Shown in pieces: positions 32,164 through 45,613 of a stretch of DNA of 64,000 nt. Every line of letters begins with the position of its first letter. Position 1 is the first letter of the stretch. Made by a program: the position numbers and the translations under genes. The stretch lies in NCBI GenBank assembly GCA_025060325.1, contig JANXBW010000027.1, positions 1-64,000 of the forward strand. Reading direction: 5' to 3'. Source of the stretch: Thermoguttaceae bacterium (GTDB lineage: Bacteria > Planctomycetota > Planctomycetia > Pirellulales > Thermoguttaceae). The notes under the pieces were generated by a model. The model ran no database searches, was not told where the DNA came from, and worked only from the letters and a program-made list of their open reading frames with translations.

Positions 32164-33993
32164 ATGCCCTTTGGCTCTGGGAAAAGACCACGCATGAAGC
32201 TTTTGGGAACACCACAACCGACTGGGCGGGGTGGATGCCAGAGGGGCGGAGTGTGCCTAGGGCGAACCGCCCGGCCTTCCGTCGCCCCCGTCCTGCTCCT
32301 GGCTATTTTCTTGTCGCTTGGGAGGCTCGCCCCGCTTTTCGCGCAGGCACCAGGCCCTATTTACGAAATCCGTTCGCCACGAGAACGACTCGAGCTTGTT
32401 GTCAACGAAAGTAGAATCGTGACGCTTAGTCCCGAGCTAACAAAGGCCGGTCGTATTCCCCAGGCTCAGGTGGGTAATCGTGATTTGCTGGAAGTAACGC
32501 CCCTTGCCCCGACACAACTTCAGCTTTTCGCCAAAAAAGCCGGTGTCACACAAGTCAACATTTGGGACGAGCTGGGCCAAATATACACGCTGGATGTGAT
32601 CATCCTGGGGGATGCCCGGGAGTTGGCAATGATCCTTGAGTCGGAATTTCCCGGGGCAAGTCTCACAGTCAAACCGGTGGGCTCGAGCATCCTTATTTCC
32701 GGTTACGTGGATCGCCCGGAGGATGTGTCCAAAATCCGCGAAATTGCCGAACAGTTTTACCCCAAAGTGCTGACGAATATCAATGTCTCCGGTGTTCAGC
32801 AGGTTTTGCTCCACGTCAAGGCGATGGAGGTATCGCGGACAAAGCTCCGGTCACTGGGTCTGGATTGGTCTTCCCTATCCCCCAATACGCTTGTCCAAAG
32901 TATGGGGGCGGGGCTTCTTACCGGCGTATCAGCCGGAGCGGGGGGTTACAACGTCAGCACGACCGGCACAGAGACATTTCGCTTAAGCATTATCGACGGC
33001 AACGACGCCTTTTTTGCTGTCCTCGATGCGCTTCGCCGCGACAGCCTGATGCAAGTCTTGGCTGAACCGACGCTGGTGACAGTAAGCGGCCGGCCGGCTT
33101 TCTTCCAGGTTGGGGGCGAGGTCCCGACCTTAGCTCCCGCGGGGTTGGGTACTGTCTCCGTGGAATACAAGCGCTACGGGACACAAGTGGACTTTGTGCC
33201 CATCGTGTTGGGCAATGGCCGGATCAGGTTAGAAGTCAGGCCCCGCGTCAGCGACGTGGATCTTGCCCGAAGCATTACTGTCAATGGACAAACCATTTAT
33301 GCTTTTAACACCCGCGAGGTAGATACAGGCGTGGAACTTCAGGCTGGCCAGACGCTAGCTATTGCCGGTCTGGTCCAAACTCGGGTGGAAGCTGAGCGGC
33401 GCGGTTTGCCGGTCCTGTCGGAACTGCCCCTTATCGGGATTCCCTTCCGCAAAGTGGTGGAGCGGACCAACGAGGTGGAACTTTTGATTTTGGTGACCCC
33501 TGAACTTGTTGACGCCCTGAATCCGGAAGAAGTGCCCCCGGGTGGGCCGGGGTTACATAGCGACCGCCCGAGCGATTGGCAACTTTATGTGCGCGGTCTT
33601 CTTGAGGTGCCACGGAAAACGCCCGCTGGTTCACCGGGCTTAACGACCAGACTGACCGATGCCCTCATCGTTCCGCCGGCTGAGTGGACACCTTCCCGTG
33701 AAGAGCTCTTGCTGCCGGAGGCCGTAAGCAGTCCTCGCCGCGCTGGGTCGAGCCCGCCGCCGCAACAACCTCCTACACCCTACGTGCCCGAACGCCCGGC
33801 CGGTGCCCCCTCCTTGTCGGGAACACCCTCCGGATTAGTCCCGCTCCCCCCGACTGATGGTTCCTCTGTGCCCCAGCTAAGTCCTGCCGCTCCTTTCGGC
33901 ACAACCGTCACGACGGTTCCGTCCGAAGTGAGAGATCCCCAAGCGCTTCCGGGTCTGATCGGGCCTGTCGGATACGAGGGCTCTCGCCCGTAA
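32164..33993 (+). CDS. cpaC: Secretin of the CpaC/RcpA type (type II/III secretion superfamily, Flp pilus)
   Basis: Outer-membrane ring subunit for pilus or protein export. The 609-residue product has an export signal (hydrophobic ...APVLLLAIFLSLG), then a pilus-assembly N-domain (SRIVTLSPELTKAGRIPQAQ). A BON-like domain follows (LTVKPVGSSILISGYVDRPE), then the secretin core (VLAEPTLVTVSGRPAFFQVG, VDFVPIVLGNGRIRLEVRP, ELLILVTPELVDALNP). A Pro-rich tail of about 130 residues completes it. The start may be the ATG at 32164 or at 32194; neither has a strong ribosome binding site. The CpaE-like gene follows after 241 bases. The remaining tad genes are not in the window. Confidence 0.9.
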   Translation: MPFGSGKRPRMKLLGTPQPTGRGGCQRGGVCLGRTARPSVAPVLLLAIFLSLGRLAPLFAQAPGPIYEIRSPRERLELVVNESRIVTLSPELTKAGRIPQAQVGNRDLLEVTPLAPTQLQLFAKKAGVTQVNIWDELGQIYTLDVIILGDARELAMILESEFPGASLTVKPVGSSILISGYVDRPEDVSKIREIAEQFYPKVLTNINVSGVQQVLLHVKAMEVSRTKLRSLGLDWSSLSPNTLVQSMGAGLLTGVSAGAGGYNVSTTGTETFRLSIIDGNDAFFAVLDALRRDSLMQVLAEPTLVTVSGRPAFFQVGGEVPTLAPAGLGTVSVEYKRYGTQVDFVPIVLGNGRIRLEVRPRVSDVDLARSITVNGQTIYAFNTREVDTGVELQAGQTLAIAGLVQTRVEAERRGLPVLSELPLIGIPFRKVVERTNEVELLILVTPELVDALNPEEVPPGGPGLHSDRPSDWQLYVRGLLEVPRKTPAGSPGLTTRLTDALIVPPAEWTPSREELLLPEAVSSPRRAGSSPPPQQPPTPYVPERPAGAPSLSGTPSGLVPLPPTDGSSVPQLSPAAPFGTTVTTVPSEVRDPQALPGLIGPVGYEGSRP

Positions 33994-41600: not shown

Positions 41601-42071
41601 TCAACCACCCCCGGAGGGAGGCCCGAGCATCTTTTCTAGAATTTCGGCCGCGGTGCGAACGAATTCCGGACAAATTGTGCGGAAAACATTAGCCTGCTTG
41701 GCAGCGGCGAATGCCTCCGGCGAGGCAATGTCCCGACCGATAAGTTGCCGGCAATCGATGGATCCGTGCCGCTCGATAAATCGTCGACAGAATTCTTGGA
41801 CGGCCTCGTAAACCTTCTCGCGGTTAGCCACGTCGGCTCCCACCCCATTCCCGAGCGAAAGTCCCAGGATGGCCACTGCCCCGCTTACTGCTCCACAAGC
41901 ATAGCCTAGTCGGCCCAAACCACCACCGAAGCCGGCCCCAAGCTTGGCCGCGGTGGCTTCATCCAAGCCAAAACGGGGCCCAAAAACGGCAAGAATAGCC
42001 TGGGAGCAAGCATAGCCGCTTGTGAACTTGGCAACGGCCTCTGATGCTAAGCTGGACTGTCCGGTCGTCAT
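41601..42071 (-). CDS. C_GCAxxG_C_C family protein
   Basis: A 156-residue protein of the putative redox-active C_GCAxxG_C_C family. It has the conserved Cys in SGYACSQAILAVFG, the motif GYACGAVSGAVAILGL and further Cys residues (EFCRRFIERHGSIDCRQLIG, FRTICPEFV). Members are small Cys-rich proteins suspected to bind a metal cluster or mediate redox chemistry; function is unproven. The ATG at 42071 is preceded by AGGATCC. It lies 125 bases upstream of the LptF/LptG-type gene on the same strand. Confidence 0.85.
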   Translation of the reverse strand: MTTGQSSLASEAVAKFTSGYACSQAILAVFGPRFGLDEATAAKLGAGFGGGLGRLGYACGAVSGAVAILGLSLGNGVGADVANREKVYEAVQEFCRRFIERHGSIDCRQLIGRDIASPEAFAAAKQANVFRTICPEFVRTAAEILEKMLGPPSGGG

Positions 42072-42397
42072 CGGGTTGGATCCTGATTTCGGAAATTTGA
42101 AGTTGACCCTGGTTTTGGGGGATCAAGTCGGTCCGAAAAAAATTGACCGTTAGCAAAGGCGGCTTTCGTTGTAAAGGAAGCTTGTGCCCGACCGGAGAAA
42201 CTTCCCCGGCGAATGCCCGCATCGCCCGGAGGCAATTTCCAAGCATGGAAGGAGACCCCAAGAGTACTCGGCGCGCCCATGGGGCCGAATCCCACAACTT
42301 ACGCCCAGCTACTACCAAGAGGGGCTTCCCAAAGTGCACGCGGAAAGGGTGCCCGAGGCCCAATCGATGCGCACCACGTGGTTCTCGGCCATTCGTC

Positions 42398-42443
42398 TTT
42401 TTAATAAACACAAAGCCGCATTTTTAATAAACGCAAAGCCGCA
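42398..42443. repeat. Tandem direct repeat, two 23-base units
   Basis: Units at 42398-42420 and 42421-42443 both begin TTTTTAATAAAC and end CAAAGCCGCA. They differ at one base (A versus G after TTTTTAATAAAC). They are much more AT-rich than the surroundings, and the second unit runs into the hairpin at 42438. Confidence 0.85.
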
Positions 42444-42471
42444 CCCACCCGCCGCCTAAGGTAGGTGCGGC
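42438..42471 (-). terminator. Hairpin, possible terminator of the downstream-facing oxidoreductase transcript
   Basis: GCCGCACCCACC (42438-42449) and GGTAGGTGCGGC (42460-42471) pair over 12 positions with one mismatch. On the minus strand the stem is followed by TTTGCGTTTATT. It lies about 270 bases past the stop at 42741. Confidence 0.5.
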
Positions 42472-42552
42472 TAAGAACTCGGTTAATCTCCCTCCTGTGG
42501 GCCGCAGGCAATGTCGGAAGTTTCTCGAGGTCCGTGGTACAAACGCTCCCCG

Positions 42553-42669
42553 CACCACAAGCGTGGTGGAGATCTAAGCCCTGCTTAATCTATAGCCGCC
42601 CAACGCCGCAGGCTGGGGAACGAACTTGCCGTCGCTTCTGCGACGCTCGTTCTCTTCGCGAGCGTCCCC
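42553..42669. ncRNA. Cluster of hairpins, possible structured RNA (tentative)
   Basis: CACCAC/GTGGTG (42553-42568, 4-base loop) is followed by a compound element. That element comprises GGGGA (42615-42619) with TCCCC (42665-42669), GAACGA (42618-42623) with TCGTTC (42647-42652) and GTCGC (42631-42635) with GCGAC (42640-42644). An alternative is GCTCG (42645-42649) with CGAGC (42659-42663). It does not match tmRNA, SRP RNA or RNase P RNA as far as I can tell. It may instead be a 3' untranslated structure. Confidence 0.3.
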
Positions 42670-42740
42670 AAGTAGACAACCGGACACTCGCGACAGGGAG
42701 CGTGGATGATGGGCGGCGCAGTGCGCAGGGGCCTAATCGT

Positions 42741-44060
42741 TTACGCGAGCTCCCAACCCGGCCGGCACACCGGCTTCACCAGGGTTTCAAGGCCTTCGAT
42801 GTTGGTCACCCGCATGTTCGCGGCGTCCCATTCCACTTTCGGCCCAACACCGGGGACAGCGGCCACCCAGACGGCCAAGTTCCCAAGAAGCACTGTTTCC
42901 GTCAGTGGGCTGGCATAGTCCGGGAAGTTGGACATCGCCGGCTCGCCACCTTTAATTGCTTCGATCCATTCCTCGAAGTGGCCGGGCGATCGCTTGAATT
43001 GCACATCCGGGATGGCCACGTTACCCAGCATCTCGAACCGATCGCAGTAGTCACCCGGCGAATAGAGCTTACCTTTCTCGCCGATAATCAGGGCGCCACT
43101 TGCGGCCGGATCCCGTCCGTCAAGGAGCTCCTTGGGCGGCCGTTTGCCTCCGTCGTACCACACAAGCTTCAGAGCGGGCCGGTCACCGCGAGCCGGGAAT
43201 TCGTACGTGATAACCGACCACTTGGGGAAGCTGTCGCCGTTGTGACCGGATGTTTCCGCCTGCATCGATACCGGATCGCGAAGGTCCAAGGCGGCAAACG
43301 GCATGTTGAGGGTGTGGCAGGCCATGTCGCCAAGCGCCCCGGTGCCAAAGTCCCAATAGCCCCGCCAGGCAAACGGGTGATAACCGTCGGCGTAAGGACG
43401 GACCGGTGCTGGCCCAAGCCACAAATCCCACTTCACATGCGGCGGACAGGGCTTGGGCTCGGGTCGATTACCCCCCTGGGGCCAGATCGGCCGATTCGTC
43501 CACACATGCACTTCCGATACCTTGCCCAGGGCGCCTGCCTTGACAATCGCCGCCGCTCGCCGCAGCCCGTCGGTAGCCGTTCCTTGGTTACCCATCTGGG
43601 TGGCCACGCCCATTTCTCGCGCCACCTTGCCCATCAAGCGGGCTTCGTAAACAGTCCGGGTCAGCGGCTTTTGGCAGAAGCAATGCATCTTCATCCGCAT
43701 GGCCATCACACCGGCCAGGGCGTGTGTATGATCGGCCGTGCTAATGGTCACCGCGTCGATCTTTCCTTCGTTTTCCTCCAACATCTTGCGGAAATCGGTG
43801 TACCGCTTTGCACCAGCGAACCGGCTCGCCGCTGCGTTGAGGCGGTTTTCGTCGATGTCGCAGATGGCCACCACATCGCCGAATCGGGCTGCGTCGGCCG
43901 AGTCACTCGAACCTTTGCCCCCGATCCCGATGCAGCCGAATTGGATTCGCTCATTGGGCGACTTTGCCTGCTGCGCCCCAACCGTACGAACAACGTACAC
44001 ACCGATGCCGGCCCAAGCCGCTGCCCGAAGGAAGCCTCTTCGATCCGACTTTACCTTCAT
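42741..44060 (-). CDS. Tat-exported Gfo/Idh/MocA-family oxidoreductase
   Basis: A 439-residue dehydrogenase with a twin-arginine signal at the very start (KSDRRGFLRAAAWAGIG). The Rossmann motif is GCIGIGGKGSSD (about 43-54) and the catalytic-region motif is CQKPLTRTVYEA (QKP at 130-132). C-terminal sequences typical of the large planctomycete clade follow (DWDAANMRVTN-like segment, LGNLAVWVA). It is probably secreted with bound NAD(P); the sugar substrate is unknown. The ATG at 44060 has GGAG eight bases upstream. An in-frame GTG three codons earlier overlaps that site and is rejected. The opposite strand carries a long open frame that is a shadow. Confidence 0.9.
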   Translation of the reverse strand: MKVKSDRRGFLRAAAWAGIGVYVVRTVGAQQAKSPNERIQFGCIGIGGKGSSDSADAARFGDVVAICDIDENRLNAAASRFAGAKRYTDFRKMLEENEGKIDAVTISTADHTHALAGVMAMRMKMHCFCQKPLTRTVYEARLMGKVAREMGVATQMGNQGTATDGLRRAAAIVKAGALGKVSEVHVWTNRPIWPQGGNRPEPKPCPPHVKWDLWLGPAPVRPYADGYHPFAWRGYWDFGTGALGDMACHTLNMPFAALDLRDPVSMQAETSGHNGDSFPKWSVITYEFPARGDRPALKLVWYDGGKRPPKELLDGRDPAASGALIIGEKGKLYSPGDYCDRFEMLGNVAIPDVQFKRSPGHFEEWIEAIKGGEPAMSNFPDYASPLTETVLLGNLAVWVAAVPGVGPKVEWDAANMRVTNIEGLETLVKPVCRPGWELA

Positions 44061-45001
44061 GCTGCACACTCCTTCAGAGGTTTACAGGACCAAGGTGAAC
44101 TGTTGCGGCAAATGCACCGATGCCGCTCCGTTTCAACAACATTTGTTTAAAGTTGACTACGAGGAGCTCAATCCCGGTGGGCGATTGAGTCACCAAGCCG
44201 TCCGGTGGCACATGGCTGTGTCAAACATTCCGTTACCATACCGGCTTGATCCGCTAGGTGCAAGAACCTGCCTCGGACGCTCGGCAGATGGTCGAGACTT
44301 GCAACGGCACTCTAAGCGAGAAGCCTCATCGGTGGGGGCTTGGCCGGACGTTCGTCCATAGGAGCTCGGACCACCATGCTGGGAGCCAGGCTCTCAAGTG
44401 TGTGGGTAACCTTGCGCCACCCTTTGGATCCGGGAGAATCCCCCATGCGAGTGTGCCACCCGCGTGCTTTTTGGGCCTGATGAACCCGAGTTTTTGCGCA
44501 CCCAGCAAATTTCCCCGGCCAGCACAACCGCGGAATAGGGCCTCGCCGAGGAGAAAGCCCTGTTTTTGGGAACGGATTGTTGATCGAGGGACAACTTGAG
44601 AAATGGGCGCGCAGCCGCCTCTAATTACGAAGGCCAACCGACCTTAACGAAGCTTATCTGGTTGCCCGAAAGATTCGCGGCCAGAAGCTCGGCCTCCTGA
44701 GGGTGCCCCTTACCCCTCCCTGCTCTGACTTGTGTAAGACTCATCAAAGAGGTGGCTTCGGCCCCGGCGGAACTAGCCGCCATTTGCCTCGTTTGGGGGG
44801 GTAAAAGGCTCGGTCGACGGTGTTAAAGGCTTGGATGATTCCTCTGCGCAAGCGATGGTCATTCAAGGATGGTTAGCCGTTTCCTGGCAGGACTTTTCCC
44901 GCCCGCGGCGGATCGCCCCAGACGTGCTTGCGCGAGTGATGCGAGGAGACTAGGCCTACGTAAAAGGCGAAAGATTTTCCGCGGTGCGGCAATTTTAGTT
45001 A
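44061..45001. other. Divergent intergenic region of about 940 bases
   Basis: Between the Tat oxidoreductase (-) and the sigma-factor gene (+). Short frames on both strands show no recognisable content. Promoters for both flanking units are expected but not assignable. Confidence 0.4.
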
Positions 45002-45031
45002 GTGGAAGAGCGCCGGTCGGAAAGGGCGATA

Positions 45032-45613
45032 ATGGGCCGATCAACCAGTGAACCCCCCCAATTGGGCGATAACGCCCGGCGTTCCGAGCCAACGGACCTC
45101 GCCGACCATCGTCCGTGGCTTCGGGCGGTGGTTTATGCGCGGCTGGGGAGTTGGGATGGGGTGGATGACGTGCTTCAGGAGGTGGCTTTGGCCGCCGTCC
45201 AGCACAATCCCCCCAAAGGAACTCGCTTCAAGCCTTGGCTACGGCGCGTTGCGATCCGTCAGGCCCTGCTCTATCGCCGTCGCACGGGAAGACAACGGCG
45301 GCGGGATGAGGCCGTCGCTCAGCTCCTAACTGAAACCGATGGAAATGGTCGGCTCTTAAGCCCAGACCCGTTGGAGTGGCTCCTTCAGCAGGAACAGTCT
45401 TACTTAGTGCAGAAGGCCCTTGAGCAACTGCCAGCTGTGGATGCGGAAATCTTGCTTTTAAAGTACGGGGAAGACTGGAGTTACGACCAGATAGCGGAGC
45501 ATCTTGGCACTACGGCGCCGGCGGTCCAGGCTCGGCTTCACCGGGCCCGGATGAGGTTGCGGAGGGTTTTAACCGGGCTGAGCCGAGCTAGCCTAGGGAA
45601 GGGGAACGAATGA
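45032..45613 (+). CDS. ECF-type RNA polymerase sigma factor
   Basis: A 193-residue sigma-70-family protein with the two ECF regions. Region 2 runs from HRPWLRAVVYARLG-like text through DDVLQEVALAAVQHNPP and FKPWLRRVAIRQALLYRRR. Region 4 is LEQLPAVDAEILLLKYGEDW, then SYDQIAEHLGTTAPAVQARL and HRARMRLRRVL. It would direct transcription of a specific regulon. The ATG at 45032 is favoured (GGAAAGG upstream); a GTG at 45002 would add ten residues. The next two genes on the same strand encode a membrane protein with an anti-sigma layout and a PDZ protein, a common planctomycete set. Confidence 0.9.
   Translation: MGRSTSEPPQLGDNARRSEPTDLADHRPWLRAVVYARLGSWDGVDDVLQEVALAAVQHNPPKGTRFKPWLRRVAIRQALLYRRRTGRQRRRDEAVAQLLTETDGNGRLLSPDPLEWLLQQEQSYLVQKALEQLPAVDAEILLLKYGEDWSYDQIAEHLGTTAPAVQARLHRARMRLRRVLTGLSRASLGKGNE

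Follow-up and report, generated by a model that had tools for sequence, protein, structure and literature searches.

A stable hairpin with a duplicated T-rich tail as the probable transcription end of an oxidoreductase gene in a planctomycete

The intergenic element and its stems

Downstream of an oxidoreductase gene, the window (the whole 64,000-nucleotide stretch of DNA analysed here) contains a tandem repeat and several potential stems within 42398-42669. A first-pass annotation had suggested that they represent an unannotated structured RNA or a composite terminator, and the question raised by this locus is which of these, if either, it is. The genome is that of a planctomycete; the best named relatives of the oxidoreductase were found in a Thermoguttaceae assembly (90% identity) and a Thermogutta metagenome assembly (80% identity). 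The oxidoreductase gene (42741-44069, minus strand) is an open frame with matches to Pfam GFO_IDH_MocA and GFO_IDH_MocA_C2, and its product has a twin-arginine-like start, DRRGFLRAA, as read by eye. A search of its own genome gave 43 matches at E ≤ 0.001, indicating a large Gfo/Idh/MocA family; one of these (G000:C3:26105-27415) contains an internal TAA. The next gene on the same strand (41601-42071, minus strand; open frame and profile match) encodes a C_GCAxxG_C_C family protein. The element lies between these two minus-strand genes, with the oxidoreductase gene upstream, and the oxidoreductase transcript would cross 42398-42669 on the minus strand. On the plus strand, a 561-codon open frame without a Pfam match (42465-44150) is antisense to the oxidoreductase gene and probably represents a shadow frame, and 45002-45613 encodes a sigma-70 family protein with regions 2 and 4 only, which is ECF-like.

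The individual parts of the element were present. Two 23-base units with one mismatch were located at 42398-42420 and 42421-42443, adjoining a hairpin at 42437-42472, and a CACCAC/GTGGTG stem was located at 42553-42568. The pairs GGGGA/TCCCC (42615-42619/42665-42669), GAACGA/TCGTTC (42618-42652) and CGTCGC/GCGACG (42630-42645) were also found, but the compound structure that they had been thought to form is not one fold, since the pairings compete: GGGGA and GAACGA overlap by two bases, and both have to compete with an 8-pair stem at 42642-42666. The first-pass annotation had placed the highest density of perfect stems in the window here. In contrast, whichever of six definitions of such a stem was applied, another 272-base window was richer (counts of 6, 12, 3, 6, 13 and 7 in the element compared to window maxima of 8, 16, 5, 8, 22 and 10), and between 1.6% and 19% of the 272-base windows, depending on the definition, matched or beat the element.

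Folding of the whole region gave z values of -2.03 on the minus strand (6/200 shuffles as good) and -1.97 on the plus strand (7/200). When ranked by GC-corrected stability, the 272-nt window from 42401 was 41st (minus strand) and 1027th (plus strand) of 1594, and the 272-nt minus-strand window from 42241, which also contains the hairpin, was sixth. The segment 42606-42672 gave z values of -0.53 (minus) and -2.55 (plus) and the longer segment 42606-42700 a minus-strand value of -2.06; the latter two values mildly favour the first-pass annotation. Stem density and whole-region folding are unexceptional, and of all the listed stems only the hairpin at 42437-42472 is exceptional. Based on stem counts, folding and ranking, the smaller stems (42553-42568 and 42615-42669, within 42532-42669) are probably incidental background.

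A search of 42000-42900 against Rfam 15, of the kind that had been proposed as a check, gave no match above chance: the two matches (E values of 3.1 and 5.8) were both far below the gathering score, the better one reaching 17.9 bits compared to a gathering score of 70. No sigma-70-like promoter was found in 41800-43300, in a scan limited to that promoter type. A tandem repeat adjoins a palindrome at this site, and the intergenic stretch is longer than that of the syntenic congener G001 (669 compared to about 450 bases), both of which would fit a mobile or dispersed palindromic element (MITE or REP), either as a copy or as a remnant. However, no second copy of the element was found in its own genome beyond chance-level short matches, so that the multi-copy character of a dispersed palindromic repeat was lacking, and a repeat search of 42200-42900 revealed no long terminal inverted repeats; such an origin is extremely improbable.

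The hairpin at 42437-42472 and its tail

Read on the minus strand, the hairpin consists of 14 pairs, with the 5' arm AGCCGCACCTACCT at 42472-42459, the loop TAGGCGGC at 42458-42451 and the 3' arm GGGTGGGTGCGGCT at 42450-42437, and was recovered by folding, hairpin ranking and a terminator scan. It lies 268 nt past the oxidoreductase stop codon and has a minus-strand folding energy of -27.0 kcal/mol; at 60 C the stem keeps -17.6 kcal/mol. Thermogutta is a thermophile. The structure showed a clear strand preference, with 42398-42475 folding at -32.4 on the minus strand compared to -22.2 on the plus strand; the hairpin is weaker as plus-strand RNA because two G-U pairs turn into A-C. When folded alone it gave a z value of -4.73, which was equalled by none of 200 shuffles, and the 120-nt minus-strand window from 42361 ranked first of 1597 for GC-corrected stability. 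The upstream gene's strand therefore carries, at 42437-42472, the kind of stable, GC-rich RNA hairpin that is expected of an intrinsic terminator.

The genomic background of strong hairpins was determined in a sample of 464 kb of the 4.78 Mb genome, made up of the window plus 20 segments of 20 kb each; perfect stems of at least 8 pairs (G-U allowed, loop of 3-12) were collected from both strands. The hairpin at 42437-42472 was the most stable of the 3401 distinct perfect-stem hairpins in this sample, and a terminator score of the d'Aubenton Carafa type placed it as the fifth distinct site. Of the 11 hairpins with a folding energy of -24 kcal/mol or lower, ten were intergenic, even though coding calls covered about 70% of the sequence, these labels being approximate since the crude codon-score gene calls (241 genes) missed the C_GCAxxG gene. 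The ten correspond to eight sites, two being counted on both strands, and 8/10 follow a same-strand gene. A T-rich tail (score of at least 2.5) was carried by 5/10 of these intergenic hairpins and by 0/37 coding hairpins at or below -18 kcal/mol; the enrichment faded at or below -10 kcal/mol (19/365 intergenic, 25/891 coding). The other sample hairpins are located 81-200 nt downstream of a same-strand gene, compared to 268 nt here. Given the intergenic bias and the tails, strong hairpins with T-rich tails look like a class of transcript ends in this genome, and the hairpin at 42437-42472 is one of them. The consensus terminator scan alone provided no evidence, since the 3 sites that it listed around the region were close to the shuffled expectation of 2.1 (sd 1.6).

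Directly behind the hairpin, the minus strand reads TTTGCGTTTATT. Five of the 8 bases behind the stem are T, and the hairpin passes the consensus terminator scan. Its tail score was 2.27-2.94; when counted from the last stem base, the first tail scored 2.94 and the second 3.59. The U tract is broken by GCG in the first copy and by GUG in the second. The 23-base repeat, which is the top tandem array of the window (score of 85; next best 48), is not independent of the hairpin, since each unit is composed of the 3' foot and the tail. On the minus strand, unit 1 (42421-42443) comprises the stem foot TGCGGCT (42443-42437) and the tail TTGCGTTTATTAAAAA (42436-42421), and unit 2 (42398-42420) comprises TGCGGCT (42420-42414) and the tail TTGTGTTTATTAAAAA (42413-42398), with one substitution. 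From this arrangement we infer a single duplication of foot and tail, which probably arose when replication slipped next to the hairpin. The second-best tandem array of the window, at 33490-33521, consists of two near-identical 16-base units.

With the full 3' arm the 5' arm reached -26.2, far stronger than the -11.6 reached with the second foot, so the second unit would be at most a backup tail. The second U-rich stretch might catch read-through, and the site could then be a terminator whose fail-safe arose from the tandem-copied 3' foot and U-rich tail, such that polymerase escaping the first stretch meets the second; this elaboration is improbable. If it were true, the site would be a snapshot of terminators changing by slippage, in which location and stem strength are kept between species and the letters are not.

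Comparison with related genomes

Two other genomes of the genus, G001 and G002, were compared, and gene order was kept only in G001, where the oxidoreductase and C_GCAxxG genes are adjacent and in the same order as in the window. The gene DNA is 78% identical between the window and G001. An equally strong hairpin (-27.6 kcal/mol) was found in G001, 211 nt past the same stop codon, and it was the strongest of 603 hairpins in an 85 kb sample of that genome. Its tail is poorer than that of the window (score of 1.99, 4 T in 8 bases), and it was absent from the list of the consensus terminator scan. A strong hairpin has therefore been kept where gene order has been kept. In G002 the two genes are on different contigs, and no strong hairpin was found within 500 nt after the oxidoreductase orthologue (best, -8.7).

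The letters of the G001 hairpin are largely different from those of the window hairpin. The best local alignment of the whole intergenic stretches paired hairpin with hairpin exactly, but its score of 27 was reached by 139/300 random sequences over the full length; when only the hairpin neighbourhoods were compared, 5/500 resamples reached this score, against a control that loses self-complementarity. A ranking of 356 hairpins of -14 kcal/mol or lower, drawn from the samples of the window genome and G001, placed the G001 hairpin third in similarity to the window hairpin (tied with second). The two share GGTGCGGC in the 3' arm, two adjacent pairs being G-U in G001. It is plausible from these comparisons that both descend from one ancestral hairpin.

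The sequence between the stop codon and the hairpin was unrecognisable in G001 (best local score reached by 126/300 random sequences), as was the stretch after the hairpin (170/300). Since unaligned gaps interrupted the blastn matches of the window to the G001 sample throughout, an unalignable intergenic stretch is not peculiar to this site. Neither the smaller stems nor the tandem repeat were seen at the syntenic G001 site. Loss of the stems in close relatives had been named beforehand as evidence against the first-pass suggestion; in the one syntenic congener the multi-hairpin part had no recognisable counterpart, and the main hairpin was present as a structure in the same place. This pattern favours a 3'-end hairpin and opposes a conserved structured RNA. 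In agreement with the lack of an Rfam match and of a second copy, the unrecognisable stretch ahead of the hairpin lends no support to the suggested unannotated structured RNA.

The same data bear on two further explanations. A discrete small RNA, either independent or cut from the 3' UTR and perhaps confined to this species, could span 42740-42437 and end at the hairpin, as the 268-nt 3' UTR is long and, with the hairpin included, its folding is somewhat more stable than that of shuffled sequences (z -2.03); this is quite unlikely given the absence of an Rfam match above chance, of a recognisable congener counterpart and of a sigma-70-like promoter, other promoter types being outside the scan. 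Alternatively, the C_GCAxxG gene might have a riboswitch or attenuator leader, as it lies on the same strand downstream of several stems and a terminator-like hairpin; the upstream stems would then sense a signal, and the hairpin would be a switchable terminator. However, the hairpin ends 365 nt ahead of the start of that gene, the flanking stretches have no recognisable equivalent in the congener and no RNA family was matched, which makes a leader very unlikely.

The 500 nt downstream of the oxidoreductase gene were surveyed in the window and in 13 loci of relatives, 14 sequences in all (taken without regard to neighbouring genes and leaving out L006, L009-L021 and L068-L098), each with 20 mononucleotide shuffles as the control. 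The best hairpin beat all 20 shuffles in 5/14 sequences, namely the window, G001 (L058), L060 (-20.0), L061 (-24.5, tail score of 2.02) and L066 (-15.5); in the other nine, including G002 (L059), it did not. No more than about 105 nt past the oxidoreductase match, L062 and L063 have an identical 26-nt hairpin without a T tail, CGTTCCCAAGCCGGAGCTTGGGAACG, and L060 carries a similar one; it is possibly a dispersed palindrome in those genomes.

Transcript end formation and comparison with known systems

The hairpin at 42437-42472 most likely marks where transcription of the oxidoreductase mRNA ends, and is probably an intrinsic terminator whose U tail is imperfect and duplicated. The 14-pair stem would fold in the nascent RNA once polymerase leaves the oxidoreductase gene, and together with the U-rich stretch UUUGCGUUUAUU behind it would release polymerase before the next gene. 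The first-pass suggestion of a composite terminator was close for one part, the minus-strand hairpin with its T-rich, once-duplicated tail, where the sequence supports it. Against a terminator stand the interrupted U tract, the poorer congener tail that failed the scan, the long distance of 268 nt and the absence of a strong hairpin in G002. In other bacteria, according to PMC12207403, transcript ends lie at a median of 37-91 nt past the stop codon.

The main alternative is that Rho terminates transcription downstream and exonucleases trim the RNA back to the stem, which would define and protect the mature 3' end. Rho is encoded in the genome, with two Rho_RNA_bind matches above the cut-off, and the tail is interrupted in the window and poorer in the congener. 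In addition, PMC8269248 reports that transcripts of a GC-rich genome can end in stable stems poor in U, and that mapped ends of Rho-dependent transcripts bear exonuclease-resistant stems. However, with 5 T (window) and 4 T (congener) in 8 bases, both tails are U-rich by the limit of 3 given in that paper, and this explanation is possible but rather doubtful. The two Rho RNA-binding domain matches (G000:C4:91834-92052, 116 bits; G000:C2:92544-92762, 48.5 bits) perhaps represent Rho and a second Rho-like protein.

Both intrinsic termination and Rho-dependent protection are ordinary, and a possible unknown structured RNA thereby becomes an ordinary 3'-end hairpin. If confirmed, the site would add a single example of transcript ending in planctomycetes; no 3'-end map for this phylum was among the papers listed in literature searches, which is weak evidence of its absence from the literature searched.

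Read as an intrinsic terminator, the site resembles those defined for TransTermHP (PMC1852404) in having a short low-energy hairpin and a T-rich tail downstream of a same-strand gene, and differs from them in that the tail is broken by GCG, foot and tail are duplicated and the hairpin is located 268 nt past the stop codon. It also resembles the U-poor or 'I-shaped' 3'-end stem-loops and trimmed Rho-dependent ends described in PMC8269248, in that a very stable stem marks a putative transcript end with few U close behind; in contrast to that U-poor class, the T content behind the window stem is above the limit used there.
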